DNA of 64,000 nucleotides from Bdellovibrionia bacterium (GCA_030427805.1 JAUICP010000005.1:1-64000); one strand, 5' to 3'. Positions 1,023 through 29,316 are shown, numbered from the stretch's first letter. Program-made: numbers and translations. Notes: generated by a model not told the origin, from the sequence alone.

Positions 1023-1099
1023 GCGGGTGTAGCTCAGTTGGCTAGAGCGCAACCTTGCCAAGGTTGAGGCCGTGGGTTCGAGCCCCATCACCCGCTCCA
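1023..1099 (+). tRNA. tRNA-Gly (anticodon GCC)
   Basis: A 77-base cloverleaf. The acceptor stem pairs GCGGGTG (1023-1029) with CACCCGC (1089-1095), followed by discriminator T and an encoded CCA (1097-1099). The anticodon arm CAACC-TTGCCAA-GGTTG gives anticodon GCC, which reads GGC/GGT glycine codons. The T arm contains GGTTCGAGCCCC. Its last 14 bases plus 11 downstream bases are repeated 243 bp further on, which suggests that the gene end has served as a recombination target. Confidence 0.95.
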
Positions 1100-1328: not shown

Positions 1329-1353
1329 CATCACCCGCTCCAAATTCTCCTAA
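1329..1353. repeat. Direct repeat copy 2 of tRNA-Gly 3' end (att-like)
   Basis: Exact 25-bp copy of 1086-1110. The remnant of a transposase coding frame begins at the next bases, so this copy marks a recombination junction. Confidence 0.75.
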
Positions 1354-1354
1354 C

Positions 1355-1594
1355 CACCCACAAACCAACGGAAAGATCGAGAGGTACCACCGCTCGATTA
1401 AGGAAGAGATCAAGGTGTTCGTGTGGACGAGTCCTGATGCCTTGAGAGAGGCCATTGGTAAGTTCATTGCCTACTACAACTCCGAAAGATATCACGAGTC
1501 GTTAGGCAATGTGACCCCCGACGATGTTTACTTCGGAAGACGAGAATCAATCATAGAAAAGCGAAAGGAGGTGAAGAAAAAGACATTGAAGTGA
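1355..1594 (+). pseudogene. C-terminal remnant of an IS3-type transposase (integrase core)
   Basis: The frame reads HPQTNGKIERYHRSIKEE, then AYYNSERYHESLGNVTP and a basic tail ending at TGA (1592-1594), about 79 codons. This is the end of the rve integrase core of IS3-group transposases, including the region of the last catalytic Glu (NGKIER). The N-terminal two thirds and the first two catalytic Asp residues are missing: homology starts immediately after the tRNA-end repeat at 1353. There is no start codon or ribosome site, so it is a dead fragment left by a rearrangement. Confidence 0.85.
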
Positions 1595-1757
1595 CGACAT
1601 GATTACAATACAAACTTTGCAAATAAGAGATGGAACTGTTAACTAAAAATGAGCTTGTTTAGTCTCATATGTTCTGACGACGTACAGTTGCCTGAGCATC
1701 CCTCCTTCTTACACCCACAAATCATGCTAATTTTACTAATTGGAAACTTAGGCGGTC

Positions 1758-3020
1758 CTACCGAAATTCGTCAAGTTGGTCTCCGCGGTGGAGGACCTCA
1801 ATTTCATCACTTGGAAATACTCTCATGAGAGGGACCCTAGGATAGGTATAGGTCGCACAGTGAGCTGAATACCCGAACATATCGCTGGAATTGAACTGTA
1901 CAACTTCGAACCCCACATCCTCATAAACCTTTTTTGCGATTTCATCCTCAGGCACTCCAAATCTTGGCAAAAACACCTTGCCATTCAAGTAGACAGAATT
2001 GATATAACTTCGAGGATTATGATTATAGAGATGACTTCTAAACAGAGGGTGTTTTGGAGGGGGCGGAATAAACTTTGTATTGAAGCCTCGGTCTTTCAAT
2101 ATCTGAGAATACTGATAGTCACTGACAATAACCGTATTGTCCCACGCAAATTTGGCGTATTCATCAATATGACCTATACCACTTTTGTAGGGCAGTCGGA
2201 CAAGTCTTCCTGTGCACTTAAACTTATAAATATAGACCCAGTCAGGTATCGCAGCATCACCTTCGCGATTAATGATGAGACAGTCCCCTTGTTTGTTAGC
2301 TATGAAATTCCCACCGGAAATCATGTAAGGAGTGTGCACAGGCTCTGCCTCAAAGAGTCGGTGTAGTGAACTCCAGTCTGTGTAATCTCGACGTCCCACC
2401 AGACTGTAGTTAGAATAGGTGCTAACCAATTGTAGAGCATCGTTCTCATCATAGACAGGGATTGGCGAAACATCTCTCATCATAAAGACCTTCGAATTGT
2501 CTTTACCACGCACTGTACTTTCATAGTAAGGGTGCCAAACTATGGTCACTTTATTTCTATCAATAGATCCTTCAAGGAATTTTAAGATTCGTTCAGTTTC
2601 CGTTCTGCTTTTTGAGGAACTGATCAAGATGAGGTGTTCATTCTTTATGTTTTTTGCAACCTTTTTTATCAGGTTCCTAAACTGTTTGTATTGATTCCTT
2701 ACATGTTCGACATAAACTGGTGGTGTGTTTGGATGTATTTCTGTGGTTCTAATTGTTGCTGACATGATAATATAGCCGACGGGCTCCCGTTCCATAAAAG
2801 GGCGCCCTATATACTTGTTTGGTCCTGTGGAGAATTGTGGATCAAGAGCTTTTTCGTCAGATTCGCGGACCTTTTGATTGTAGTCGGCAATCTGTTTCTG
2901 ATACTCAGGGTCCATTTGAGGTCTGGTTGATTCCAAGGCCTGCGGAGCGACTCCACAGTTTTGGAAGCCAACTAGGGATGCAGTTAAAATAAAGACAATT
3001 GAGACAATAGCAATCTTCAT
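1758..3020 (-). CDS. Lipoprotein of the peptidylarginine/agmatine deiminase superfamily (paralog 1)
   Basis: A predicted exported lipoprotein of 420 residues: signal peptide with lipobox LVGFQNC (Cys22). The mature part carries the hallmarks of PAD_porph/agmatine deiminase enzymes, which hydrolyse a guanidinium group to a ureido group and ammonia: MRD (Asp183), SGGN (236-238), GHID (His284, Asp286), YINS...KVFLP (Asn341) and AHCAT (nucleophile Cys388). The spacing of NS..LN.KVF.P and HC.T resembles the Porphyromonas enzyme PPAD. Start chosen at ATG after a GGGGGAAAT ribosome site. The substrate is unknown: peptidyl-arginine, free arginine or agmatine outside the cytoplasm are possible. The closest relative in the window is the gene at 6925-8190. 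Confidence 0.75.
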   Translation of the reverse strand: MKIAIVSIVFILTASLVGFQNCGVAPQALESTRPQMDPEYQKQIADYNQKVRESDEKALDPQFSTGPNKYIGRPFMEREPVGYIIMSATIRTTEIHPNTPPVYVEHVRNQYKQFRNLIKKVAKNIKNEHLILISSSKSRTETERILKFLEGSIDRNKVTIVWHPYYESTVRGKDNSKVFMMRDVSPIPVYDENDALQLVSTYSNYSLVGRRDYTDWSSLHRLFEAEPVHTPYMISGGNFIANKQGDCLIINREGDAAIPDWVYIYKFKCTGRLVRLPYKSGIGHIDEYAKFAWDNTVIVSDYQYSQILKDRGFNTKFIPPPPKHPLFRSHLYNHNPRSYINSVYLNGKVFLPRFGVPEDEIAKKVYEDVGFEVVQFNSSDMFGYSAHCATYTYPRVPLMRVFPSDEIEVLHRGDQLDEFR

Positions 3021-3217
3021 ATTTCCCCCTTAGAGCAGCATTGGCAATGGGTTATCGTCTAATATTGAGTACATCTTGAGCCATTTTCGTTCGCTTGGGG
3101 GCGTACTCAAAAGCGGGATGATCATGCAGTAGCGTAAATTTAACCGTGTCTTGAAAAGAGTCAAATACAGTTGGTCCCAAATTGGAACAAATACAAGGCT
3201 TAGCCACTGAAACGCAA

Positions 3218-3764
3218 ACCCATCTGTCAGCCCTGACCGATCAACATCGGCTGGTTTTGATCAAGCAAGACGTATTCAAGGACAGAGACGATGGATTGGG
3301 CGGCTCTTTGAGTACGTAAAGAAAATACGTCTTCGATTTGCCGGCCCCAGGTGTGCACGCGCGCCCAGCTAATTTGTAGATCCAAGTCGTGAAACGCTCC
3401 GGCAGCTGCGAGCAGGAGACCCTTTTTGATCTTTACCTCGCAACGACACTGTGAGCTCGCCATCTCCCTCCTCGGTGACTTCGATGGCGGGGGACTTAGC
3501 TCTACACGCTTTTGCTTTTTCAGTGTCTAGCGCTATCACCGAAGCCATCTTTAACAATTGCTTCGGTGTTTTGCTGGTCTTCACCTGAAACCAATCGTAA
3601 ACCCCATAGTCTTCGATAGTTTTGATAGAACTTTGCCGAACCCGGCAACCAAGTGCGCTCAACAACGTGACGAATTGAAAAAACAGACCCGATTCGTCCT
3701 TTTTTTTATGGAACCGAATCCAAGTCTCTCCCTTTTTATTCCTCAGCACCAGAATCGGTAGTCA
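3218..3764 (-). pseudogene. glnD: Decayed C-terminal fragment of glnD (PII uridylyltransferase)
   Basis: Two overlapping frames together match the tandem ACT domains at the GlnD C terminus. The upstream frame gives NKKGETWIRFHKKKDESGLF and later VSLRGKDQKG; the downstream frame continues with LLLAAAGAFHDLDLQISWAR and RQIEDVFSL, ending at TAG near 3227. The break lies at the run AAAAAGGG (around 3415-3427), where one extra base shifts the frame. An in-frame stop at 3762-3764 closes the upstream side, and the nucleotidyltransferase and HD domains are absent. GlnD normally has about 800-900 residues, so this is a non-functional relic. Confidence 0.75.
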
Positions 3765-3891
3765 TTAACATTTCCCAAAAACGAAAAACTTCCTTTCAAG
3801 GTCGTTCGCTATGGCGAACTCCCGATTGTCGCGGGTGATGGGGTGCATTTATTGGATGATCTCAAATGGGTGGGGCAGTATTAGACCCGAG
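3765..3891. other. Short non-coding stretch, possibly another gene fragment
   Basis: Between the glnD relic and the next lipoprotein. A plus-strand frame of about 40 codons (3762-3884, containing LPFKVVRYGELPIVAGDGVH) looks protein-like but has no start or ribosome site. It may be the tail of another decayed gene. No family is recognised. Confidence 0.25.
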
Positions 3892-5121
3892 TCATTCATT
3901 GAATGCTTTTAATATCTTTACATTTTGGAAGTTTAAGGCCTGCTTTAGTTCGCTTAAGGGCAATTTCGGGTAGAGCATCGTAATGCAGTGAAGGGAACCA
4001 TTTCCTTCTCTAGAAAGTATTTTTGAGTTAATTTTAACGACTCGTTCGTACCCAGCTTGAATGTACTTACTTGCGGCAATATCATCATTTGCTGATCCAT
4101 AAGAAGGCATAAATACGGTTCCATTAATAGTGACCGAATTGACATAGGTTCCGCCTGACACTCCGGTATTCGATGGCACTAGTATGGCTTGGTAGCCAAG
4201 TTTTCTGAGAATGGTCGCGTAGGACTTCTGGTTAGTGATGAATTTTTTGGCCGAAACTGGTTTTATGACTTCGTCGACGTGTCCAATACCAAAAATGTGT
4301 TTTAGCCGAGTTAATTTTCTACATCCGTAGTAATTTTTAAAAATTGAATCTGGAATATCACTTGTCCGATAGTTATTGACCATAAAACAATGACCATTGT
4401 GAGTTGCTAAGAAATTTCCACCGGCAATAAAGAAACTGTGTTTTCTTAATCTCCCATTAAAGGCATTCTTAATGTAGAAATCGGGATTATAGTACTTGTA
4501 GTATTTAGCATCGACAAAGATAGACTCGTTCCCATTTTTAACAAGGACAGGCGGCAGTACATCTCTAGACCAGAAGCTGTGCCACTGCTGGAATTTGGGA
4601 TAAGTATCTGTATTTTCATGGGTTGGAGCCAGGTAAAGGATCGCTAAGCGTTTAAGATTAATATACCTCTTGTATTGATTCTTAATTCGGTTGATTTCTT
4701 CTTGGGTATTTAAATGAGTGTACAGGATTAAGTTAACATCACTCGGAAGGTTCGCGGCCATCTTTTGTCTTGCCTTTAAAGCTTGAGCCGACCAAGGGGC
4801 CTTTTCGGAATCTCCCCAAGTGCCATCTTGATTGTGAGCCGAGGCGACGAGGTATCCGATTTTAGAGTATTCTGCGAAAGGAAATATACCTGAATTGTTA
4901 AATGTTTTTTGGCTTATACCCTGGGCTTCTAAGGCTCGCAATTCTTCAAGGGCTTTTCGGTTTTCTTCGATGGTGCGTTTTGCTTCAAATTGACTGACTA
5001 GGCTATTTGGGTCACTGCTTAAGAGTTCAGTGGTCGGCGCAAAACCATCACCACAATTCTGAAACAAGAATAATAGCGGACTCATAGCCAAGACAATGAC
5101 GAAAACCTTAAAGAACTTCAC
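3892..5121 (-). CDS. Lipoprotein of the peptidylarginine/agmatine deiminase superfamily (paralog 2)
   Basis: A predicted lipoprotein of 409 residues with lipobox LFLFQNC (Cys23); GTG start after AGGGGTAACA. It keeps the full catalytic set of the guanidino-deiminase fold: WSRD (Asp187), AGGN (234-236), GHVDE (His281, Asp283), YVNS...TVFMP (Asn328) and LHCIT (Cys379). It is the most divergent of the three copies and lacks the shared C-terminal tail IEVLHRGDQLDEFR of the other two. A perfect TATAAT lies upstream (5163-5168), suggesting its own promoter. Probable role is hydrolysis of arginine-like groups on the cell surface or in the periplasm; the substrate is inferred only from the fold. Confidence 0.75.
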   Translation of the reverse strand: MKFFKVFVIVLAMSPLLFLFQNCGDGFAPTTELLSSDPNSLVSQFEAKRTIEENRKALEELRALEAQGISQKTFNNSGIFPFAEYSKIGYLVASAHNQDGTWGDSEKAPWSAQALKARQKMAANLPSDVNLILYTHLNTQEEINRIKNQYKRYINLKRLAILYLAPTHENTDTYPKFQQWHSFWSRDVLPPVLVKNGNESIFVDAKYYKYYNPDFYIKNAFNGRLRKHSFFIAGGNFLATHNGHCFMVNNYRTSDIPDSIFKNYYGCRKLTRLKHIFGIGHVDEVIKPVSAKKFITNQKSYATILRKLGYQAILVPSNTGVSGGTYVNSVTINGTVFMPSYGSANDDIAASKYIQAGYERVVKINSKILSREGNGSLHCITMLYPKLPLSELKQALNFQNVKILKAFNE

Positions 5122-5471
5122 TGTTACCCCTCACCAAAACACACTACCCAAGAACCTCTTTCATTATATGGTTTCAACTTCTAAGGGATGAATAAACGGG
5201 CTATTTTTTCAAGATAAGACAGTCATTTCATCAAAATGAAACAATACCCTATTCATAGCGAGTAGAATTTCGACTAGGTGATACTGATGTCTAACAAATA
5301 TTCTCTGTGACCCAAAATTCGTCTTTTTTTTAAAAAATCCTTATCAAATCAAATAGATGGACCTTTTATGGGGGTGAATTTTTGCACTTTGAAAGGGGGC
5401 GCCTAGAAGGAGTAAATTTTGAAAACGACGAACAATTTCTTGGTAACCAAGGTGTTAGGAAGAAAACAATA
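5122..5471. other. 350-bp divergent intergenic region
   Basis: AT-rich spacer between the divergent starts of deiminase paralog 2 (5121, minus) and the secreted protein at 5472 (plus). It contains the TATAAT noted above and homopolymer T/A runs near 5325-5340. A plus-strand frame continues upstream of 5472 to 5382 but has no signal peptide and is not taken as coding. No RNA gene recognised. Confidence 0.5.
5163..5168 (-). promoter_or_regulatory. -10 box TATAAT upstream of deiminase paralog 2
   Basis: A perfect minus-strand TATAAT 42 bases upstream of the GTG start at 5121. No good -35 box is visible at 16-18 bases, so it may need an activator. Confidence 0.4.
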
Positions 5472-6848
5472 ATGCTTTTTAGAATTACCGCGATTTTACT
5501 TACAATTTTTTCGCTCGGTTTGCCCGCCCATGGGGAGTCGTCTGCTCCGACTTGCGAAAACAGATTTCTTACAGACCTTCAAACCTCTGACCTGCAAAAC
5601 CGATCCGAAGAGAGCGACACCTTAACCTACGAGGCCTTTGAAGTCGTTGGCAGGAACCCAGGGATTCATGGAGGTCAGAGAACGGTCGTGCGCCGAACCG
5701 GAAGTTGGTTTGATTTTGAAAAGGAGCTCAAGAAAAAAGGTGATCTAGTCATCGATCTTCGTTTTTTTCCCCATGTTTTGGGCGAAAGGGAAGCCCACTT
5801 TTTTGGCTTCGAAGTTTTGGATGATCACCATATTAGCCTGCCCAATGTCGAAGAAATCAACGGGGCAATCGAAAAATACAATAGTTTACTACCAGAGGAT
5901 GATCCTAGACGGATTCTACTTCGCTATTACTCCATTCCTGAAGTCCACAATACCGTTCACGAGTACGTAACGATGTTTAGAGACAATTTAGCGATACCAA
6001 TTTCGTCAAACAGAAAATCATATTTTCACGATGTGAGCGCCCATAGTATGCAGGGACTCTTTGTCGATAACCTGGTCATTCAGGCCATTCAACAGCGAGT
6101 GGAGCTGGCCTTCGCTGCAGTTGAGCATGTGAAGGCAAAATTTCGAGGAACGGCAGAGGAGCCTAGAGCAAAAAGGCTATCATCAAGCATAAAGGGTCAG
6201 CTCGCTGGTTTAATTGATCAAATTGGAGCCTTTGTCAGTCTTGCTCCAAATAAAGAAATGCGCGACTATTTTGGTCGAATCGGAATTGAACATTACAATG
6301 AAGGTGTTAGTTCGGGGAATCAAAATCAACTCGATGAAAACTGGAGACAGATGATCGAAGACAATGGCGCCATCCATAAAATTGCATTCTTTCATTTTGA
6401 CTGGATCTTAAGCGATGATTTCGAATCTTACTTTAACAAAGAAGTGCGAGATACTTTAGCGACTAAGTATTCGAGGTACCGAGGGCTTCGAGAGCTTGAG
6501 ACTGCTGTAATGGAGGCTTTGCAGGAGTTTTTTGATCAGAACAGAAGTCAGTTGAATGAATTGTATGGCTTAAAGAGAATGATCGATGATGCTCGAGAAC
6601 TAGAAAAATCTCTTCGAGTTTTTGCCTTTCCACCTCGCTCTCCATCGAGACTGCAGAGAGCCGTTGAGCGTGTTGGAAGATTCCTTTCTCGAAGACGGCC
6701 CAGCGAACCAGACATTGATCTCACTCCCATTGATAGCGACTTAATCAATGATTTTGAGAGAAATCTATCGACCCATGAGTCAATGAGAGCCTATGTCAAC
6801 AGGCTCATCTTTTTAAGGCGGAATTTGACCGAACTATCGGGTGAGTAG
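5472..6848 (+). CDS. Secreted protein of unknown function, with Cys-x3-Phe motif after the signal peptide
   Basis: 458 residues. The frame is open from 5382, but the ATG at 5472 is preferred: it follows AGGAAG at good spacing and begins a clean signal peptide (MLFRITAILLTIFSLGLPAHG). The mature N terminus contains TCENRF, a C-x3-F motif also seen in other exported proteins of the window. Further features are a helical, charged middle region, a HD...H pattern near residue 190 (FHDVSAHS) and an Arg-rich stretch near residue 400 (FLSRRRP). No domain recognised. It sits, on the opposite strand, between two deiminase lipoprotein genes. Confidence 0.75.
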   Translation: MLFRITAILLTIFSLGLPAHGESSAPTCENRFLTDLQTSDLQNRSEESDTLTYEAFEVVGRNPGIHGGQRTVVRRTGSWFDFEKELKKKGDLVIDLRFFPHVLGEREAHFFGFEVLDDHHISLPNVEEINGAIEKYNSLLPEDDPRRILLRYYSIPEVHNTVHEYVTMFRDNLAIPISSNRKSYFHDVSAHSMQGLFVDNLVIQAIQQRVELAFAAVEHVKAKFRGTAEEPRAKRLSSSIKGQLAGLIDQIGAFVSLAPNKEMRDYFGRIGIEHYNEGVSSGNQNQLDENWRQMIEDNGAIHKIAFFHFDWILSDDFESYFNKEVRDTLATKYSRYRGLRELETAVMEALQEFFDQNRSQLNELYGLKRMIDDARELEKSLRVFAFPPRSPSRLQRAVERVGRFLSRRRPSEPDIDLTPIDSDLINDFERNLSTHESMRAYVNRLIFLRRNLTELSGE

Positions 6849-6924
6849 GTGACACAGTCGTAATCCTTAGTATTTTCTTTTTTTGAACGATTTAAGATTA
6901 AGAATAATACAGGAGAGTAAGAGC

Positions 6925-8190
6925 TCATCTAAACTCGTCGAGCTGGTCGCCGCGATGGAGGACTTCAATTTCATCGTTTGGGAAAATCCGCATTGTTGGT
7001 ACACGTGGGTATGTGTAAGTCAGACAATGGCCTGACCCTCCACCACGTAGGACTATATTACTAGAAGAAAAACGAATCACATTGAATCCCAAGTCAGAGT
7101 AGACCTTTGCCGCTTGATTGTCTTCTGGTTCACCATAGACTGGCATAAACACTTTTTGATTCAAAAAGACAGAATTGATATAAGTTCTTGAATTCCCACT
7201 GGTTGACTTGAGGGGGTCTTTTCTAGGGGTGGGCATAAATTTCGTGGTAAAGCCATTCTGCTGTAAGATTTGTGCGTATTGATAATTGCTGACCAAAACA
7301 AGATTGTCACTGGCGAAGCTTGCGTACATGTCGATGTGTTCAATTACGCCATTTCCCAATGGGGGAAGTCGCACTAGGCGTCCAGTACACTTATACCTGT
7401 ATATAAATACCCAATCAGGTGTTAGGGCCTCAGCATAGGACCGGTTTACGATCAGGCAATCGCCCTTGGTGTTGGCTACAAAGTTACCTCCCGCCCAAAT
7501 GTAAGGAGAGTGAAGTTTTTCCGCTGCAAACATTCTTGCTAAGTAAGGGGCTCTATAGATGTAAACGCTTTCGTCATAGGTGCTTACAAGTTGGAGTTGA
7601 TCATTTTCGTCATAAACTGGTATGGGTAAGCGGTCTCTCCACCACTGTAGGCCCCGGTTTGGGGTAGTATCAAATCTGCGGTCATCACTGTTATTAGACG
7701 CGATATGCACTATGAACAATTTGTTTAGATCAATATGGTCTTTTAAGAAGTTTAAAATTCTATTTGTCTCAGATTCCTGTTTTGATGAAGAGATAATGAC
7801 AAGACGTTCACTTTTAATATTTCGAGCAATCTTTATTAAAAAGCGCTTGTATTCTCTTAGAGCACTTCTCCAGGTATCTGTATATATTTGTGGGGTTTCG
7901 GATCCAAACCTATACATTCTTGGGGGCGGCCCCATGACAACGTAGCCGACGGGTTCCGTTTCCATAAAAGGTCGGCCAATATATTTACTTGGAGCCGCGG
8001 CAAAAACCGGATCATTAGCCTTAGAGTCATTGGCCAGGGTTTCTTTTGTCTGTTCGAGCATGAGCTGCTGATAATCGGGGTCGAGCTCTGGCCTCAGGGA
8101 TTCTGCAAGTTGAGGAGCGTATCCACAGTTTTGGAAGCCAATTATAGTTGCTGCTAAGAAAATAGCGATTGAGACGATTGCTTTTTTCAT
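6925..8190 (-). CDS. Lipoprotein of the peptidylarginine/agmatine deiminase superfamily (paralog 3)
   Basis: 421 residues from the ATG at 8190; a GTG two codons upstream is possible, but the AGGGGTG ribosome site fits the ATG. The lipobox is IIGFQNC (Cys22). Catalytic residues of the superfamily are present: WWRD (Asp186), AGGN (234-236), EHID (His285, Asp287), YINS...KVFMP (Asn339) and GHCLT (Cys389). Where the other copies have GHID/GHVD, this one has EHID. It is clearly the sister of paralog 1: shared KYIGRPFME, PVYDEND.LQLVSTY, CTGRLVRLP and an identical last 14 residues. An extracytoplasmic guanidino-modifying enzyme is inferred. Confidence 0.75.
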   Translation of the reverse strand: MKKAIVSIAIFLAATIIGFQNCGYAPQLAESLRPELDPDYQQLMLEQTKETLANDSKANDPVFAAAPSKYIGRPFMETEPVGYVVMGPPPRMYRFGSETPQIYTDTWRSALREYKRFLIKIARNIKSERLVIISSSKQESETNRILNFLKDHIDLNKLFIVHIASNNSDDRRFDTTPNRGLQWWRDRLPIPVYDENDQLQLVSTYDESVYIYRAPYLARMFAAEKLHSPYIWAGGNFVANTKGDCLIVNRSYAEALTPDWVFIYRYKCTGRLVRLPPLGNGVIEHIDMYASFASDNLVLVSNYQYAQILQQNGFTTKFMPTPRKDPLKSTSGNSRTYINSVFLNQKVFMPVYGEPEDNQAAKVYSDLGFNVIRFSSSNIVLRGGGSGHCLTYTYPRVPTMRIFPNDEIEVLHRGDQLDEFR

Positions 8191-11850: not shown

Positions 11851-12789
11851 ATGAATAGATCAATCATCAAAGTTTTACTCGTACTTTTATTTCCATTGCT
11901 TGCAATGGCCAATCAACCAAAAGAAGTCAGCTACATCGATAGTCTCTCAGATATTACCGATCCGGCCACTCACCACGGTTTTGTTGACCTCAATGATCTT
12001 TGGTATCCACCAGGAATTGAGATGAACGGTATGACCGAGGAAATCTTTAATCAGATCCTCGACAACGTTTACAAAGTTTACGAACCCATCTTTAGAGCTA
12101 AAGGCGCAGAATTTGTAATTGAGCGTCGTTGGGAAGACGGTACTGTGAACGCTTTTGCCAGACAAATTGGCAATAAGTGGATGATTCGTATGTTTGGTGG
12201 TCTTGCTAGACACGAAACAATTACTCCTGATGGGTTTGCCCTCGTTGCTTGTCACGAAGTCGGTCACCATTTGGCGGGAGCTCCTAAAAAAGGAACTCGT
12301 TGGGCTTCAAACGAAGGCCAGTCTGATTACTTTGCGACTCTAAAGTGTATGCGAAAGCTATGGGCTCAAGATGATAACATCGGTTATGTCGAGTACATGT
12401 GGGCCATGGAAAATCCTTTCGTTGATGAGTACGCCATGGAGATGTGTATTAAGGCTCACCAAGGTGGCCCCATGCAGGCTCTTTGTGGCCGAATGTCAAT
12501 GGGTGGCCAATCGGTTGCTTTCCTCTTTCAAGCATTGAGAAAGTTGCCAACGCCTCCAAAATTCAATACGCCCGATCAAACCAAAGCGAAGCAAACTCAA
12601 GACTCTCATCCAATGCCACAGTGTCGAATGGATACCTACTTCCAAGGAGCGCTTTGCCCGATCAGTGCTGATCAAGATGTCGATGATATGGATCCAAGTG
12701 TAGGAACTTGTAATCGACTTGCGAACCACCCTTACGGACTTCGTCCTCTTTGTTGGTTTGCTCCAGCTGAAGCCTTTGGATTCTTCTAA
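11851..12789 (+). CDS. Secreted zinc metalloprotease-like protein (HEVGH)
   Basis: 312 residues; signal peptide MNRSIIKVLLVLLFPLLAMA. The zincin motif HEVGH (135-139) lies in a hydrophobic helix (ALVACHEVGHHLAG) and is followed by NEGQSDYFA, where Glu155 or Asp159 can be the third zinc ligand. Cys residues near the C terminus (CRMDTY, ALCPIS, GTCNRLA, LCWFAP) suggest disulfides in an exported protein. Ribosome site GGAGGGGATTCAA. A strong terminator follows, so it is monocistronic. Predicted extracellular or periplasmic peptidase; specificity unknown. Confidence 0.8.
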   Translation: MNRSIIKVLLVLLFPLLAMANQPKEVSYIDSLSDITDPATHHGFVDLNDLWYPPGIEMNGMTEEIFNQILDNVYKVYEPIFRAKGAEFVIERRWEDGTVNAFARQIGNKWMIRMFGGLARHETITPDGFALVACHEVGHHLAGAPKKGTRWASNEGQSDYFATLKCMRKLWAQDDNIGYVEYMWAMENPFVDEYAMEMCIKAHQGGPMQALCGRMSMGGQSVAFLFQALRKLPTPPKFNTPDQTKAKQTQDSHPMPQCRMDTYFQGALCPISADQDVDDMDPSVGTCNRLANHPYGLRPLCWFAPAEAFGFF

Positions 12790-22057: not shown

Positions 22058-22383
22058 ACCCCTGTAACAACTACGAAAGGTCCTTGCGTTCGGTCTTTGG
22101 CTTGCGCTGCGGCTCAAACCTGGGTCGAGCTTTTTACGCAATTTCTCAGGCCAGTTTCTTGGAGTTTTTCTCAAGTCAATTAATCCCAAAATTAGATTTG
22201 TGAATAACAAGTTAAATCGAAGGTGATTGTCTCAGTTCTGTGAGTTGTTAAGAAGTCTTCAAAACCTCTACCATAGCCCTGTTTCAAGTTGGCTCAAAGC
22301 CGCTCTAATGCTCGAAAAATACAGGCCTTTATGGGAAAATTTTTCTTGATTATACTTATGTTGAACGTTGGCGAATGAGAAGT
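22058..22383. other. 326-bp intergenic region upstream of the giant lipoprotein
   Basis: No gene recognised. A possible -10 box TATACT lies about 30 bases before the ATG at 22384, without a good -35. The GC-rich patch at 22075-22135 has no clear hairpin with T-run. Confidence 0.4.
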
Positions 22384-25300
22384 ATGGATAGAACGATCAT
22401 CGAACAAAAATTTAAGCAAATTCTTTTTGCACTTGTTTTTGCGAGTCTTGTCGCCTGTGGTGGACAGCCTACTGGTGACGACGATGAAGATATTGGTTCT
22501 GTTCCTCCGTTTGATATTCTCGGGATTGAAGGGGGAAGTGACGGAATCGTCGATGGCTTTCTTACCAACGGATCTCTCGCCAATATTTCTTGGGAGCCAA
22601 ATTCCATGGCTTCCAGTTACGCTGTCGAAATCACAACGCCCGCCAATGTCGATGTATGCGCCAGTCAAACCACAACCAACACAAGTTTTAGTTTTGATTC
22701 TTGTAACCTCAGTGAGGGCCAAGATTACCTCGTTCACGTTTTTGCAGTTACGGCGGCGGGAAATATTCCTGCCACGAATTCTCCGTTTCCGTTTACGGTT
22801 GATACCGAAGTTCCAAATACTTCGATCGATGTTAATCCTGCGGCGATCGATACTGATGCGACTCCCACTTTTGAATTTTCAGGGACCGACGCCACTTCGG
22901 GGATTGCTAACTTTCAATGCCGAATAGACGGCAGCTCGTGGGCTGTGTGTACGAGCCCTTTTACTTTTCCTTCAGCCTTATCCGATGGAGCTCATACCTT
23001 TGATGTTCGTGCGACGGATGCGGCCGGCCTCGTCGAAGATAGTATTTCAAGTTTTGCTTGGACCGTGGATGCCACAGCTCCAGAGACAGCGATTGATGTA
23101 GCTCCAGTGAGTCCCGATACGGATTCGACTCCGACCTTTGAGTTTTCTGGGACCGACGGCGGGAGCGGTGTTGCCAGTTTTGAGTGTCAGGTCAATGCTG
23201 GGGGTTGGGCTGCCTGTTCCAGCCCCCATACTTTGAATCCCGCTTTAAGTGATGGCAATTATACCTTTCAAGTTCGTGCTATTGATAATGCTGGAAATGT
23301 GGATGGGACTCCTGCTAGCCACGCTTGGACTCTCGACACGGCTCCACCGGGATCATTTAATATCACCGGAGTTCAAGGCGGCACGGATGCGGTGAGTGAC
23401 GGCTTTTTAACGGGAAGCTTAAATCCCCACGTATACTGGGGATCGGCAACGGGGGCCACTGATTATGATGTCCTGATCAGAAATGCGGGCGATACGGCCG
23501 ATGTCTGTGCCACACAAAACACAGCCAATACTGACTATAATTTTGCAGCTTGTAATTTGGTTGAAGGAACTAGTTATAAGATTTTTGTTACGGCCAGAGA
23601 TGGGGTGGGTTTAACAACACCAGCTGGCAATAATTCTTTTGATTTTACGGTCGATACGGTGGCTCCGGATACTTCAATAGATGTCGCTCCAAGTGATCCC
23701 GATTCTGATACCACGCCGACCTTTGAGTTTTCTGGGACGGATGCTTCGAGTGGAGTCGCCAGTTTTGAATGTCAAATCGACAGTGGTGGGTGGGCCGCCT
23801 GTACGAGTCCTCACACCTTGAATCCTGCTCTGAGTGATGGCAGCCATACCTTTGAAGTTCGAGCGATCGATAATGCCGGACTCGTTGATGGCTCTGCTTC
23901 CAGTCATACTTGGGAAGTGGACACCGCTCCTCCGGGCCCGTTTACCATCGCCGGAGTTCAAGGTGGCACCGACAACACAAATGATATTTATCTCAGTGGG
24001 GGATTGAATCCTCATATTTATTGGAATGCATCGACGGGGGCCACGAACTACGATGTGGTTGTTCGCAATGATGGCGATACGGCCGATGTCTGCGCCACGC
24101 AAAACACGGCGGGAACTGATTATAGTTTTGCAGCATGTACCCTTGTTGATGGCACTAGTTATAAAGTGAAAGTAACAGCCAAAGATGGAGCCGCTCAGTC
24201 GACAGATGCCGGTAATAATCCCTTTGATTTTACAGTGGATGTGACTCCGCCAGAAACGGCGATCGATGTGGCTCCGGCGGATCCCGATGCCAGTGCGACT
24301 CCCAGTTTTCAATTTTCGGCAACCGATGCCACCAGTGGTGTGGACTCTTTTGAGTGTCGATTGGACGGCGCTTCGTGGAATGCCTGTACAAGTCCATTTA
24401 CGACTCCAGTCCTTGCAAATGGAGCCCATACTTTCGAAGTTCGAGCTTACGACAATGCCGGTCTCGTCGATGCCACTCCAGCCAGTCATAACTGGACGGT
24501 GGATAATTCTCCTCCAGGGGATTTCACAATTACTGGTGTTCAGGGTAACGCCGATGTCAGCAGCGATGCCTTTCTTACCAGTGGTGATAAGGCCCATGTT
24601 TTCTGGGGCGCTTCCAGTGATTCGACTAGTTATGATGTGGTGATTCGCGATAATGGCGATACAACTGATGTCTGTGGTCCGCAAAACACGGCGGGAACTG
24701 ATTACGACTTTTCTGCCTGTGCTTTGACCGAAGGAACAACCTACAAGGTTAAGGTAACAGCCAAAGATGCGGTCCCTCTGAGCACTGATGCGACCAATAG
24801 TCCTTTTGATTTTACGGTCGATACGGTGGCCCCTGAAACAACCATTGATGTAGCGCCAAGTGACCCGGACTCGAGTACCGAGGGTGGATTTGAGTTTTCT
24901 GGGACGGATGCTACGAGTGGAGTCGCTAGTTTCGAATGTCGAATTGACGGCGGTGCCTGGGGAGCGTGTGTCAGTCCATATACGACTCCGACCTTGAGCT
25001 CTGGTGCTCATACTTTTGAGGTCCGTGCTCTCGATAATGCTGGTCTCGTGGATGCCACTCCGGCGAGCCACAATTGGACAATCGATAATACTCCGCCTGG
25101 AAACTTCAGTATTACTGGGGTTCAAGGTGGCTCTGATGTTTCGAGTGATGCCTATCTAACAAGTGGCTTAAATCCCCACGCTTTTTGGGGAGGGGCTACG
25201 GGCGCATCGAGCTACGATGTCGTGATTCGCAATAATGCGGATAGTGCTGATGTTTGTGCGACCCAAAATACGGCCGGAACTGACTTTGACTTTTCATCTT

Positions 25301-28300
25301 GTACCCTGGTTGAGGGCACAAGCTATAAAGTGAAAGTCACGGCAAAAGATGATGCCGCTTTAACGACGGCCGCTGACAATGATCCTTTCACATTTATGGT
25401 GGATACGGTAGCTCCGGCGACGACCATTGATGTGGCCCCTGGGGATCCCGATGCTGATGACACTCCCACTTTTGAGTTTTCAGGCACAGATTCTGCCAGT
25501 GGTATCGCCAGTTTTGAATGTCAAATCGACAGTGGCGGATGGAGTGCCTGTACGAGTCCCTACACACTCAGCACCCTAGGGCAGGGGGCTCATACTTTTG
25601 AAGTTCGTGCCTACGATAACGCTGGCCTGGTGGATGCAACACCGGCCACCCATAACTGGTCGATTGATTCCGTCGCTCCCGATGACTTTAATATTCTTGG
25701 GATTCAAGGTGGAACCGATTCGACCAGCGATGACTATCTCACTAATGGTAGCCTTGCCCATGTTTACTGGGAGGCAGCGACAGGGGCTACGAACTACGAT
25801 GTGGTGGTTCGCGACTCGGCGGACTTGATTGATGTTTGTCCTACGCAAAACACAGTCAATACCGATTACAATTTTATTGGATGTACCCTAACTGAAGGGA
25901 CCAGTTACCGCGTTAAAGTTGCTGCCAAAGATGATGTTCCTCTTTCGACGGATGCGCTTAATAATAATTACTACTTTACGGTCGATACTGTAAGGCCAGA
26001 TACCTCAATTGATGTGGCTCCGAGTGACCCTTCAAACGAGGGGATTCCAACTTTTGAATTTTCGGGAACGGACGCCACGAGTGGTGTGGCCAGCTTTGAG
26101 TGTCGGGTGGACGGAGTGTCTTGGACGGCATGTACAAGTCCAACCACGTTTGGTTCGGCCTTTAGTGATGGCGCTCATACGTTTGAAGTTCGTGCCATAG
26201 ATAGTGCTGGAAATGTGGATGTGACTCCAGCCCTCCACGCTTGGACCGTGGATGCCACTCTTCCGACAATAAGTATTGATGTTCAACCGCCAGATCCTGA
26301 CACGGATCAAACGCCGACTTTTGAATTTTCAGGTACAGATGGTGGTTCTGGTGTTGATCACTTTGAGTGTCAAATCGACGGTGGTGGCTGGAGTACGTGT
26401 ACCAGTCCCTATACAACTGGGACACTTTCTTATGCTAACCACACTTTCGAGGTGCGCTCTCACGATGCTGCCGGAAATATTTCAAACCCGGTTGCCAGTT
26501 ATAATTGGGATATCGCTTCCAAGCCTGTGGCACCAAACTCTTTAACTTTGTCAAATCCGGTTAGTTCTCCTTGGGATGATACCACTCCTGAAATTACGGT
26601 CGGGGGAGTGACGAGTGGTAACACCGTACGACTTTATGCGGAAGATACTTGTACAACAGAAATTGTTAATGGTGTTGCCAGTGGTTCGACTATTGCGCTA
26701 ACAGTGCCGGCCCTAGCCGACGGAACCTATGACTTTTATGCCATTCAGGATAATGGCACTCCATCGGATTGTTCAACGGCTACTGTTGAGTACATTCTCT
26801 ACACGGGAACACCGGCCGATCCGAGCGGGCTCTCGCTCTTCAATCCGATTTCGAGCCCCGAGGCCGATGCCACTCCTGAAATTTTAGTGAGTGGTGTGAC
26901 GGCCGGACATACGATTCGCCTTTATAGAGGAGCGGGCTGTGCGACCGAAGTCGGTTCGGGAGTTGCGGCTGGTTCTTCCATTGCCATTGCATCGAGTACT
27001 TTGCCGAGCGACGCGACCTACAACTTTTATGCGACGGCTGAGTACGGAAATCGCCAATCGGGATGTTCGGCTGCGACCGTTGCCTATACTTTAAATTCTT
27101 CACTGACCCCGGCTTCGATGCCGACGGGACTCTCGCTTTTTGATCCGGCGACGTCTCCAAGTGGAGATGCGACTCCGATCATTCAAGTAACGGGTGTTGC
27201 CAATGGCGATACGGTTTATCTCTTTACGGATTCGAGTTGTACATCACTTGTTGGAACGGTTACGGCGACGGGAACGGTGGCTAATGTGCAATCGGCATCC
27301 CTTGCCGAAGGTAGTTACACTTTTTATGCTAAACGGGATAACGCTTCGACTTCGCCTTCGGCCTGTTCGACGGCGAGTGTTGCTTATCAAGTTATTTTTA
27401 CACCACCTTCTGCGCCTACGAGCTTAGCTCTTGTGAACCCCAATGTTTCACCGAGCAACGATCCAACGCCGTTGATACGAGTTAATGGCGTTGAAGTGGG
27501 CGCTACCGTGAGAGTTTTTACGGACGATACTTGTTCGACAGAGGTCGGTTCAATTACATCGGCCGGTGCCAGCGCTGAGGTTCTGATTTCGACACTGGCG
27601 GAAGCGACCTATAGCTTTTATGCCAATCAAACCAATGTCAGTGGATTGACTTCAAGCTGTTCGGGTTCTTTTGTTCAGTACCAGTACGACAGTGGGGTGA
27701 GTTTGCCAGATCCACCGACGTCATTGAGTCTATCAACTCCTTCCACTTCCCCTGATAATGACACAACACCAACGATCAGTGTTGAAGGGGTGGCTAGTGG
27801 GGATACCGTAAAACTGTTTACAGATAGTAGTTGTACGACTGAAGTTGCCAGTGGTGTTGCTTCGGGTACGAGTATTGAGTTGACGACTTCGGCTCTTTCT
27901 TTAGGGCAATCGATTATCTATGCCAATCGAACGGATACGGCAGGTCCGACGACGTCGAATTGTTCTTCGACATTTGTTATTTATGAAGTCACTTCTGATA
28001 TTCAACTCGATAATTTCGAAGCCGGCTTTGGTAACTGGAGTAATGTTGCTGGCGATCAAAGGGATTGGTCTACTCGAACGGGTGGTACTCAGTCTAATGG
28101 TGTCGGGCCAACATCGGGTTACGGTGGCTCTGGTCAGTACATTTATACCGAAGCCTCCAGTCCAGTTAATGCTGATGATGAATTTCATTTAGAAAGTAAT
28201 ACTCTCGATGCCGGAGCTAATAACTTGGGCATAAGCTTCAAGTGGAATAAGCGCGGGGATGATATGGGAGATCTCCACCTTGAGGTTTCGACAGACGGTG

Positions 28301-29316
28301 GAACCACTTGGGATAGCGCCATTTGGTCCCATATCGGAGCTGACGTTGAAACCGGTGGTGCCGATGTTTGGAATTCGGCGGCCGTAGACTTATGTGGCCT
28401 GGGATATAATTCTGGAAATATTAAGCTGCGATTTAGGGGAGTGATGCCATCCAGTGGAACGACATGGAACTCTGATATTGCCCTTGATGACGTTCGCATC
28501 TATTCTACAGCTTGTGCTCCGTCGCCGAGTGTGACAATTGCCAGCGATGAAAGCTTCGTTTGGAGTGGTAACGAATCCGCCGTAACAGTTTACGGAACTT
28601 GCTCTAATAGTGGTGGTAGCATTGCTGTTCGAGGAGCAGGGACAGCCGACACTGTGTGTACTGAAAATGCGTGGTCGGCAACTCTTGATCTCAGCGCTGA
28701 GCCCGAGGGAGACCTGGATTTACTCGTACAACACTTCTACGGTTCATCCCAGGGGATTAATTTCTTAACTCTGGTAAAAGACAATAGTGTTTTAACCTAC
28801 GATAATTTCGAAATAGATTTGGGGAATTTTGCCAATGTCGGTGGAGATGACAGGGATTGGACGCGGAATTCGGGTGGAACAACATCGAACAATGTTGGAC
28901 CGACTGCGGGTTACGGTGGTTCTGGTTTCTATATGTATACCGAAGCTTCGAACCCTGTGAACGCCAACGATGAATTTTTCTTTGAGCACACGACAAGCTT
29001 TGATGCTTCGGCTAGTAGTCTGCAGTTAGATTTTAAATACAATAAGCGCGGAAACAATATGGGTAATCTCTACGTTGAGGTTTCTGATGATGGCGGTTCG
29101 ACATGGAATAGTATTTGGAGTCATATTGGAGCTGACGTAGGAAGTGGCGGTACCGATATCTGGCGAGATGATTCCGCCGACGCCTGTGCGGCCGGCTATA
29201 ATTCAGGAAACATACTCGTGCGTTTTAGAGCAGTCATGCCGTCAAGCGGAAGTGTCTTCAACTCCGATATCGGTATTGACGAAGTCATCGTCCGCGACGG
29301 CGACTGCACCCCCTAG
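22384..29316 (+). CDS. Giant repeat lipoprotein with Ig-like repeats and two MAM-like domains
   Basis: 2310 residues from ATG 22384. Signal peptide with lipobox ASLVAC (Cys about 25) and an acidic linker (GDDDEDIG). Up to about residue 1380 two kinds of Ig-like unit alternate: eight of type A (IDVAP.DPD..PTFEFSGTD, SFEC..D...W..C.SP, HTFEVRA.DNAG) and six fibronectin-like type B (GVQGG.D, SYDVVIRN, DVC..QNT, GTSYKVKVTAKD). Five shorter units (TSP..D.TP.I.V.GV, CST..V.Y) run to about 1870. Two MAM-like lectin-fold domains (about 1872-2044 and 2137-2310; DNFE..FGN, KRG..MG, WSHIGADV) flank an Ig-like spacer. The layout suggests a long surface adhesin anchored by lipid at the N terminus with binding domains at the tip; that role is inferred. 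Confidence 0.85.
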   Translation: MDRTIIEQKFKQILFALVFASLVACGGQPTGDDDEDIGSVPPFDILGIEGGSDGIVDGFLTNGSLANISWEPNSMASSYAVEITTPANVDVCASQTTTNTSFSFDSCNLSEGQDYLVHVFAVTAAGNIPATNSPFPFTVDTEVPNTSIDVNPAAIDTDATPTFEFSGTDATSGIANFQCRIDGSSWAVCTSPFTFPSALSDGAHTFDVRATDAAGLVEDSISSFAWTVDATAPETAIDVAPVSPDTDSTPTFEFSGTDGGSGVASFECQVNAGGWAACSSPHTLNPALSDGNYTFQVRAIDNAGNVDGTPASHAWTLDTAPPGSFNITGVQGGTDAVSDGFLTGSLNPHVYWGSATGATDYDVLIRNAGDTADVCATQNTANTDYNFAACNLVEGTSYKIFVTARDGVGLTTPAGNNSFDFTVDTVAPDTSIDVAPSDPDSDTTPTFEFSGTDASSGVASFECQIDSGGWAACTSPHTLNPALSDGSHTFEVRAIDNAGLVDGSASSHTWEVDTAPPGPFTIAGVQGGTDNTNDIYLSGGLNPHIYWNASTGATNYDVVVRNDGDTADVCATQNTAGTDYSFAACTLVDGTSYKVKVTAKDGAAQSTDAGNNPFDFTVDVTPPETAIDVAPADPDASATPSFQFSATDATSGVDSFECRLDGASWNACTSPFTTPVLANGAHTFEVRAYDNAGLVDATPASHNWTVDNSPPGDFTITGVQGNADVSSDAFLTSGDKAHVFWGASSDSTSYDVVIRDNGDTTDVCGPQNTAGTDYDFSACALTEGTTYKVKVTAKDAVPLSTDATNSPFDFTVDTVAPETTIDVAPSDPDSSTEGGFEFSGTDATSGVASFECRIDGGAWGACVSPYTTPTLSSGAHTFEVRALDNAGLVDATPASHNWTIDNTPPGNFSITGVQGGSDVSSDAYLTSGLNPHAFWGGATGASSYDVVIRNNADSADVCATQNTAGTDFDFSSCTLVEGTSYKVKVTAKDDAALTTAADNDPFTFMVDTVAPATTIDVAPGDPDADDTPTFEFSGTDSASGIASFECQIDSGGWSACTSPYTLSTLGQGAHTFEVRAYDNAGLVDATPATHNWSIDSVAPDDFNILGIQGGTDSTSDDYLTNGSLAHVYWEAATGATNYDVVVRDSADLIDVCPTQNTVNTDYNFIGCTLTEGTSYRVKVAAKDDVPLSTDALNNNYYFTVDTVRPDTSIDVAPSDPSNEGIPTFEFSGTDATSGVASFECRVDGVSWTACTSPTTFGSAFSDGAHTFEVRAIDSAGNVDVTPALHAWTVDATLPTISIDVQPPDPDTDQTPTFEFSGTDGGSGVDHFECQIDGGGWSTCTSPYTTGTLSYANHTFEVRSHDAAGNISNPVASYNWDIASKPVAPNSLTLSNPVSSPWDDTTPEITVGGVTSGNTVRLYAEDTCTTEIVNGVASGSTIALTVPALADGTYDFYAIQDNGTPSDCSTATVEYILYTGTPADPSGLSLFNPISSPEADATPEILVSGVTAGHTIRLYRGAGCATEVGSGVAAGSSIAIASSTLPSDATYNFYATAEYGNRQSGCSAATVAYTLNSSLTPASMPTGLSLFDPATSPSGDATPIIQVTGVANGDTVYLFTDSSCTSLVGTVTATGTVANVQSASLAEGSYTFYAKRDNASTSPSACSTASVAYQVIFTPPSAPTSLALVNPNVSPSNDPTPLIRVNGVEVGATVRVFTDDTCSTEVGSITSAGASAEVLISTLAEATYSFYANQTNVSGLTSSCSGSFVQYQYDSGVSLPDPPTSLSLSTPSTSPDNDTTPTISVEGVASGDTVKLFTDSSCTTEVASGVASGTSIELTTSALSLGQSIIYANRTDTAGPTTSNCSSTFVIYEVTSDIQLDNFEAGFGNWSNVAGDQRDWSTRTGGTQSNGVGPTSGYGGSGQYIYTEASSPVNADDEFHLESNTLDAGANNLGISFKWNKRGDDMGDLHLEVSTDGGTTWDSAIWSHIGADVETGGADVWNSAAVDLCGLGYNSGNIKLRFRGVMPSSGTTWNSDIALDDVRIYSTACAPSPSVTIASDESFVWSGNESAVTVYGTCSNSGGSIAVRGAGTADTVCTENAWSATLDLSAEPEGDLDLLVQHFYGSSQGINFLTLVKDNSVLTYDNFEIDLGNFANVGGDDRDWTRNSGGTTSNNVGPTAGYGGSGFYMYTEASNPVNANDEFFFEHTTSFDASASSLQLDFKYNKRGNNMGNLYVEVSDDGGSTWNSIWSHIGADVGSGGTDIWRDDSADACAAGYNSGNILVRFRAVMPSSGSVFNSDIGIDEVIVRDGDCTP
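23660..26000 (+). repeat. Tandem coding repeat of about 580 bp (A-B units)
   Basis: Four successive A+B Ig-like pairs begin near 23664, 24249, 24831 and 25411 (next A near 25995), a period of roughly 580-585 bp. Nucleotide blocks such as GTCTCGTCGATGCCACTCC recur between copies, showing duplication by unit followed by divergence. Confidence 0.8.

Follow-up and report, generated by a model that had tools for sequence, protein, structure and literature searches.

Three predicted lipoproteins of a Bdellovibrionia bacterium form a divergent, accessory branch of an exported PF04371 family

Three neighboring genes in a 64,000-nucleotide stretch of DNA from a Bdellovibrionia bacterium (GCA_030427805.1 JAUICP010000005.1:1-64000; hereafter the window) raise the question of what a set of putatively lipid-anchored relatives of the guanidino deiminases would do outside the cytoplasm. 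The original prediction described them as surface lipoproteins with intact peptidylarginine/agmatine-deiminase active sites, and the three ORFs were recovered on the minus strand at 1758-3020 (P1, 420 aa), 3892-5121 (P2, 409 aa, with a GTG start) and 6925-8190 (P3, 421 aa), each predicted to encode an exported PF04371 (PAD_porph) lipoprotein and each with a purine-rich stretch 5' of its start codon. A GTG upstream of P3, at 8196, is a possible alternative start. No other PF04371 gene is present in the source genome of 4.5 Mb. P1 and P3 share 56% protein identity and P2 is 29–31% identical to P1; P2 is the family-typical member of the trio, with at most 42% identity to its relatives (alignment A4). 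Between P1 and P3, only 27–57% of third codon positions are identical per 30-codon block, with saturated dS and a dN of 0.39. As third positions have thus almost reached saturation and the protein sequences are still conserved, both P1 and P3 have been kept by protein-level selection. For the tails of the two genes, we rejected gene conversion, given 91% protein identity vs 50% third-position identity in this part.

All three proteins scored above the curated cut-off of the PF04371 profile, with E-values of 4.6e-10, 7.6e-12 and 3e-14 and bit scores of 39.7, 45.5 and 53.4 for P1, P2 and P3, respectively, against a gathering score of 25; the alignment covers essentially only their C-terminal 60–85 residues. 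AlphaFold2 models built from 40-sequence alignments reached a pLDDT of 82.6 for P3 and 81.4 for P2, each with a pTM of 0.83. When these models were compared with the PDB using Foldseek, the top matches were exclusively guanidino-modifying pentein folds, led by agmatine deiminases (6nib, 3.5e-17 for P3; 6b10, 1e-17 for P2) and PPAD of Porphyromonas gingivalis (5ak8, 5.4e-16 for P3 and 2.6e-17 for P2), and followed by DDAH, ADI and the human PADs. The alpha/beta-propeller deiminase fold that had been proposed is thus the one predicted for P2 and P3 and, on profile scores and models together, P1–P3 belong to the guanidino-modifying (pentein) superfamily. Foldseek does not separate PPAD from agmatine deiminase (AguA), as the E-values lie within about one order of magnitude of each other.

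We then mapped the active-site residues through an alignment to a PPAD homologue and a table of alignment columns. The ordered motifs reported by the original prediction are present in all three proteins: RD (R182/D183 in P1, R186/D187 in P2, R185/D186 in P3), GGN (236–238, 234–236 and 234–236), H-I/V-D (284/286, 281/283 and 285/287), NS (341, 328 and 339) and HC-x-T (387/388, 378/379 and 388/389). Computed from the residue numbering, the His-Cys codons that mark the nucleophile region fall on the minus strand at 1857-1862 (H387-C388 of P1), 3985-3990 (H378-C379 of P2) and 7024-7029 (H388-C389 of P3). PPAD activity requires D130, H236, D238, N297 and C351 (PMC4487231), which align with D187, H281, D283, N328 and C379 of P2; the corresponding residues are D183, H284, D286, N341 and C388 in P1, and D186, H285, D287, N339 and C389 in P3, such that PPAD and the trio have the same five essential residues. 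Judged by alignment to solved members, these residues would converge in one pocket.

The description of the active site as intact holds for this Asp/His/Asp/Asn/Cys set but not for its surroundings. A Glu preceding GGN, kept in 37/37 non-window rows of the working alignment, is replaced by S235 in P1, A233 in P2 and A233 in P3. ADI and DDAH use a Cys-His-Glu triad in which the Glu stabilizes the catalytic His (PMC3474736, PMC11659421), and from the E-GG motif we infer that the lost residue corresponds to this triad Glu. The family-invariant Thr-Asp (296–297 in P2 numbering) reads TN, VS and VS in the trio, and M180 of P1 takes the place of the family Trp in W-x-R-D. PPAD likewise has no Glu at the position before GGN: its residue there is Thr (T180), and the T180A mutant retains ~66% activity (PMC4487231), suggesting that Ala or Ser in the trio is compatible with catalysis. 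Catalysis by P1–P3 is therefore plausible but not assured.

These substitutions bear directly on the alternative that the trio are catalytically impaired lipoproteins that bind, but do not hydrolyze, a guanidino compound or a protein. Replacement of the family-invariant Glu, Asp and (in P1) Trp speaks for such a role, as do five relatives from a wider set (L014, L015, L126, L129 and L130) that go further and combine a His-to-Asp change at the catalytic His with Glu-to-Val, indicating ongoing change in this part of the active site within the family; the missing pathway genes described below point the same way. Against it, the complete Asp/His/Asp/Asn/Cys set persists in three proteins that otherwise diverge to 26–56% identity, and a protein with a binding role would have no need to retain its nucleophile. 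We consider loss of catalysis unlikely on this balance.

Where would such enzymes act? The N-termini of P1–P3 consist of a hydrophobic signal followed at its end by FQNC-G, encoded on the minus strand at 2953-2966 (P1, Cys22), 5051-5064 (P2) and 8123-8136 (P3). FQNC-G is a non-canonical lipobox sequence. We counted a degenerate DNA pattern for FQNCG across the 4.5-Mb genome, with the reversed pattern as a control, and found 14 occurrences vs 1 for the control; all 14 lie directly 3' of the N-terminal hydrophobic stretch of an ORF. By this placement (14/14), FQNCG behaves as the lipobox of the source organism, which agrees with the lipobox originally assigned to all three proteins, and P1–P3 are predicted to be exported and lipid-anchored. 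The prediction covers export and lipidation; an outward-facing position in the outer membrane, as the original term surface lipoproteins implies, would go beyond it. In addition, two extra Cys residues (C245 and C267 of P2) are invariant in 40/40 family members, consistent with a disulfide formed in an oxidizing compartment.

Next, we considered whether the trio could be true extracellular peptidylarginine deiminases, citrullinating proteins of the cell itself, its prey or its neighbors. PPAD (PDB 5ak7, 4yt9, 6i0x) shares PF04371, the pentein fold and export with the trio, and the PDB entry most similar to P3 in sequence is a PPAD structure (6i0x, E = 1.9e-4, compared with 4e-3 for the best agmatine deiminase). 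Moreover, Ala or Ser at the position of PPAD Thr180 is a PPAD-like rather than an agmatine-deiminase-like feature, and the predicted export and lipid anchor would allow access to proteins. The same order also contains a genuine PPAD homologue (L016), which matches PPAD with E = 1e-60, carries YNRPRP and both carboxylate-binding arginines, and aligns with the C-terminal part of PPAD. The trio differs from PPAD in several respects, with only 16–18% identity in structural alignments and a predicted N-terminal lipid anchor in place of type IX secretion. PPAD has a C-terminal Ig-like part after its catalytic domain, whereas P1, P2 and P3 end ~30 residues past the catalytic Cys and have no such part. 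The substrate carboxylate is bound in PPAD by R152, R154 and Y233, of which R152 is indispensable, and human PAD4 carries the two arginine positions as R372/R374 (PMC4487231); in the alignment columns, no equivalents of R152, R154 or Y233 were found in the trio or its family. This makes protein citrullination by the trio improbable in our assessment. The proposed resemblance of the C-terminal half to PPAD over agmatine deiminase finds a basis in the P3 sequence match but not in the family profile, against which other PF04371 structures score as well as PPAD, nor in the Foldseek comparison. The further claim that secreted bacterial protein deiminases are very rare goes too far for homologues: bacterial PAD sequences have been described in many genera (PMC7864903), and relatives of the trio occur in 23/141 genomes of the order, in many Elusimicrobiota and in a few others. 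As an enzyme, PPAD is still reported to be the sole prokaryotic PAD known so far (PMC4585897).

Agmatine deiminase offers a second comparison. AguA (PDB 6b10, 6nib, 1xkn) shares PF04371, the pentein fold and the catalytic Asp/His/Asp/Asn/Cys with the trio, and exported agmatine deiminases would be in line with the Foldseek ranking, which places this group first by a small margin, and with hhalign, which gave E = 3.5e-18 for the family against an AguA-like protein and 3e-17 against a PPAD homologue. Conversely, the NCBIfam agmatine deiminase models (TIGR03380/NF010070) returned 12.9, 26.1 and 29.2 bits vs a cut-off of 381.8, and a phylogenetic tree set the family apart from AguA-like proteins (SH-aLRT 98–99). 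AguA-like proteins lack an export signal and retain the Glu before GG, whereas the trio is predicted to be exported and has lost this residue. A further residue that they retain is the Asp at position −4 from the catalytic His, which binds the agmatine amine (Asp220 in MtAIH; PMC6447857); this column is not conserved in the trio and its family, being F277 in P2 and a mixture of D, K and A among relatives. Taken together, these differences make it very improbable that the trio are exported agmatine deiminases.

To place the three proteins, relatives were gathered using the family alignment as the query (alignment A4, loci L030–L067). The resulting exported PF04371 family has ~26–42% identity to the trio and shares with it the two invariant Cys, RD, GGN, I-x-H-x-D, the N before the last strand pair and HC-x-T-x-x-YP. 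Among relatives whose N-terminus is intact, nearly all start with an export signal, as judged by crude rules. In the relatives these signals are cleavable or transmembrane rather than the FQNC lipoboxes of the trio, and nearly all relatives keep E-GGN and T-D, which the trio does not. The close relatives belong to Bdellovibrionota, to many Elusimicrobiota and to a few MAGs labeled Proteobacteria, and the family was present in 25/291 genomes of a phylum survey. Within the order, 141 genomes were searched at 1e-5 with P3 to give the 23 matches mentioned above; none of these genomes held another protein of the P1/P3 type, the best outside match having 39% identity over the C-terminal half. In the tree, P2 and the P1/P3 pair sit on long branches, P1 with P3 is the only supported grouping among them, and the tree fixes the position of neither inside the family. 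No relatives were found in viral contigs or plasmids, providing no link to phages or plasmids. The suggested link to predation is weak: in one genus of the order (g16), represented mostly by complete genomes and probably Bdellovibrio, only 1 of the ~20 genomes listed matched P3, and weakly. Our literature search found nothing relevant on deiminases in Bdellovibrio or Elusimicrobia and no described function for the exported PF04371 family.

The trio is also variable at short range. In a genome of the same genus (G001), the locus is syntenic with 83–95% DNA identity over the aligned parts, but the segment at 1343-5284 that holds P1 and P2 is replaced by ~200 bp, P3 is absent from both contigs flanking its position, and P1, P2 and P3 have no match elsewhere in this 91% complete draft, suggesting that, with that degree of completeness, the trio was gained or lost at the species scale. 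An exported 488-aa protein of unknown family is encoded between P2 and P3 on the plus strand (5382-6848). We do not count this gene as part of the system and rejected an operon with the trio, as it lies on the opposite strand and stays in G001, at 83% DNA identity, when its deiminase neighbors are absent. The 37-nt repeats near a tRNA-Gly were not supported as an integration site; most of the region recurs in G001, where P1 and P2 are missing. The inverted-repeat element of the G001 junction was not found in the window genome. We regard the trio as a branch, divergent in sequence and accessory in distribution, of the exported PF04371 family that Bdellovibrionota and Elusimicrobiota share.

A hint at function came from the gene neighborhoods of the relatives. 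At seven loci (L030, L031, L032, L033, L054, L014 and L117), the exported family gene is arranged head-to-head with a cytosolic arginine-dihydrolase-like gene, and the PPAD homologue in Bdellovibrionales is likewise paired with such a gene in an eighth genome. The partner belongs to the DDAH/arginine dihydrolase group, has ArgZ as its closest solved structure (6jv0, E = 7e-35) and shows no export signal; ArgZ/AgrE and DDAH are in the same superfamily as the trio. Co-occurrence of the partner and the exported deiminase across 60 genomes was 8/11 vs 4/49 (Fisher p = 2.6e-5), or p = 0.003 when collapsed to genera, a value without full phylogenetic correction. Linkage and co-occurrence point to a tie between the exported enzymes and arginine or guanidino catabolism, and the head-to-head pairing suggests this role rather than a citrullination weapon specific to predation. 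In the window genome itself, neither the arginine-dihydrolase-like partner nor ADI was found, and no AguB scored over the cut-off, so that no route for a ureido product is apparent.

The reading we favor is that the trio are exported guanidino hydrolases acting on a small arginine-derived substrate, an interpretation to which we assign an even chance. P1–P3 would be lipid-anchored cysteine hydrolases that hold an arginine-like compound through two Asp residues, one from RD and one from H-x-D, and attack its guanidinium carbon with the Cys preceding the final strand. Release of ammonia would be followed by His-assisted hydrolysis of the Cys-bound intermediate, so that a ureido (citrulline-like) product forms outside the cytoplasm. 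The compound is most likely a small arginine-derived guanidine, such as free arginine, arginine at a peptide terminus or a related molecule, which the enzymes would encounter in the periplasm or extracellularly; their role would be nitrogen or arginine catabolism. Activity, substrate and role, as well as the membrane and the face at which the trio would sit, are what we infer from these comparisons. This reading is favored by the PF04371 scores, the pentein-only structural matches and the conservation of the five residues essential in PPAD; by lipobox use, the invariant Cys pair, the export signals of relatives and cores kept despite saturated synonymous sites; and by the partner linkage and co-occurrence in relatives together with the activity of PPAD T180A. 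Loss of the His-stabilizing Glu, the altered Thr-Asp pair and the pathway genes missing from the window genome count against it. The substrate of the trio is a guess, as the substrate-recognition residues of characterized members are not conserved. The original observation itself stands and exceeds what chance would give. Its interpretation is partly supported: PF04371 membership, the predicted fold, the five catalytic residues and the predicted lipid-anchored export hold, but a closeness to PPAD does not extend to the trio in general.

The best-studied case of bacterial protein citrullination is that of PPAD, which acts as a virulence factor in humans and has been associated with rheumatoid arthritis (PMC4585897, PMC4487231). 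It is conceivable, if quite doubtful, that the trio represents a lipid-anchored, cell-surface protein-citrullinating system that arose separately from PPAD in a Bdellovibrionota lineage, by a route that would have combined loss of the Glu partner of the His with a changed substrate rim. Should this be true, no lipoprotein protein deiminase would precede P1–P3, and bacterial PF04371 enzymes would gain only a second kind of experimentally supported protein citrullination. Beyond this scenario, our analysis delineates an exported PF04371 family with members across Bdellovibrionota and Elusimicrobiota, with a predicted lipid-anchored branch in which the His partner is altered and a subgroup without the catalytic His, and it places a genuine PPAD homologue in Bdellovibrionales adjoining the arginine-dihydrolase-like gene. 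Together these offer a panel for studying the roles of exported deiminases in free-living bacteria and the evolution of substrate choice.

The final 22 residues of P1 (window 1758-1826) and P3 (6925-6993), approximately RVFPSDEIEVLHRGDQLDEFR, are 91% identical, far more than the remainder of the two proteins, while third-position identity between the tails is only 50%. These comparisons point to a constrained tail, which P2 and the relatives lack.

In eight related genomes, a gene encoding an exported deiminase forms a head-to-head pair with one of ArgZ/DDAH-like type (loci L030:5021-5854, minus strand, L031, L032, L033, L054, L014, L117 and L016), and in L030 and L031 the pair is enclosed by a mur/fts-like (cell-wall) gene cluster. 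The members at L014, L015, L126, L129 and L130 carry Asp in place of the catalytic His and Val in place of the neighboring Glu, with the Cys retained, and are possibly pseudoenzymes or enzymes of altered chemistry. L016:610-1992, from genome G010 of the Bdellovibrionales, encodes a genuine PPAD homologue (E=1e-60) that keeps both carboxylate-binding arginines, in YNRPRP, as well as the C-terminal part, and that is adjoined by the arginine-dihydrolase-like gene.

A tRNA-Gly gene (window 1023-1099) is overlapped at its 3' end by a 37-nt repeat (1086-1122), which recurs at 1329-1365 and, inverted, at 1194-1230. The region (1023-1365) is att-like, although its bulk is also present in the sister genome G001, which lacks P1 and P2. 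There, approximately 200 bp occupy their place (L162:9774-9973, G001:C160), flanked by the inverted repeat CCATTTCACATTCCAGAAACTTC, an element with no copies in the window genome. Elsewhere in the window lie a 2313-aa ORF (22375-29316, plus strand) and a gene for an exported protein with a CHEVGHH motif (11851-12789, plus strand), whose M48 peptidase match is weak and below the cut-off.

Genome-wide, FQNC-G lies at signal ends in 14/14 occurrences, including window sites 2953, 5051 and 8123. This placement indicates, at the sequence level, that FQNC-G serves as a lipobox in the source organism, one that would escape canonical lipobox patterns.
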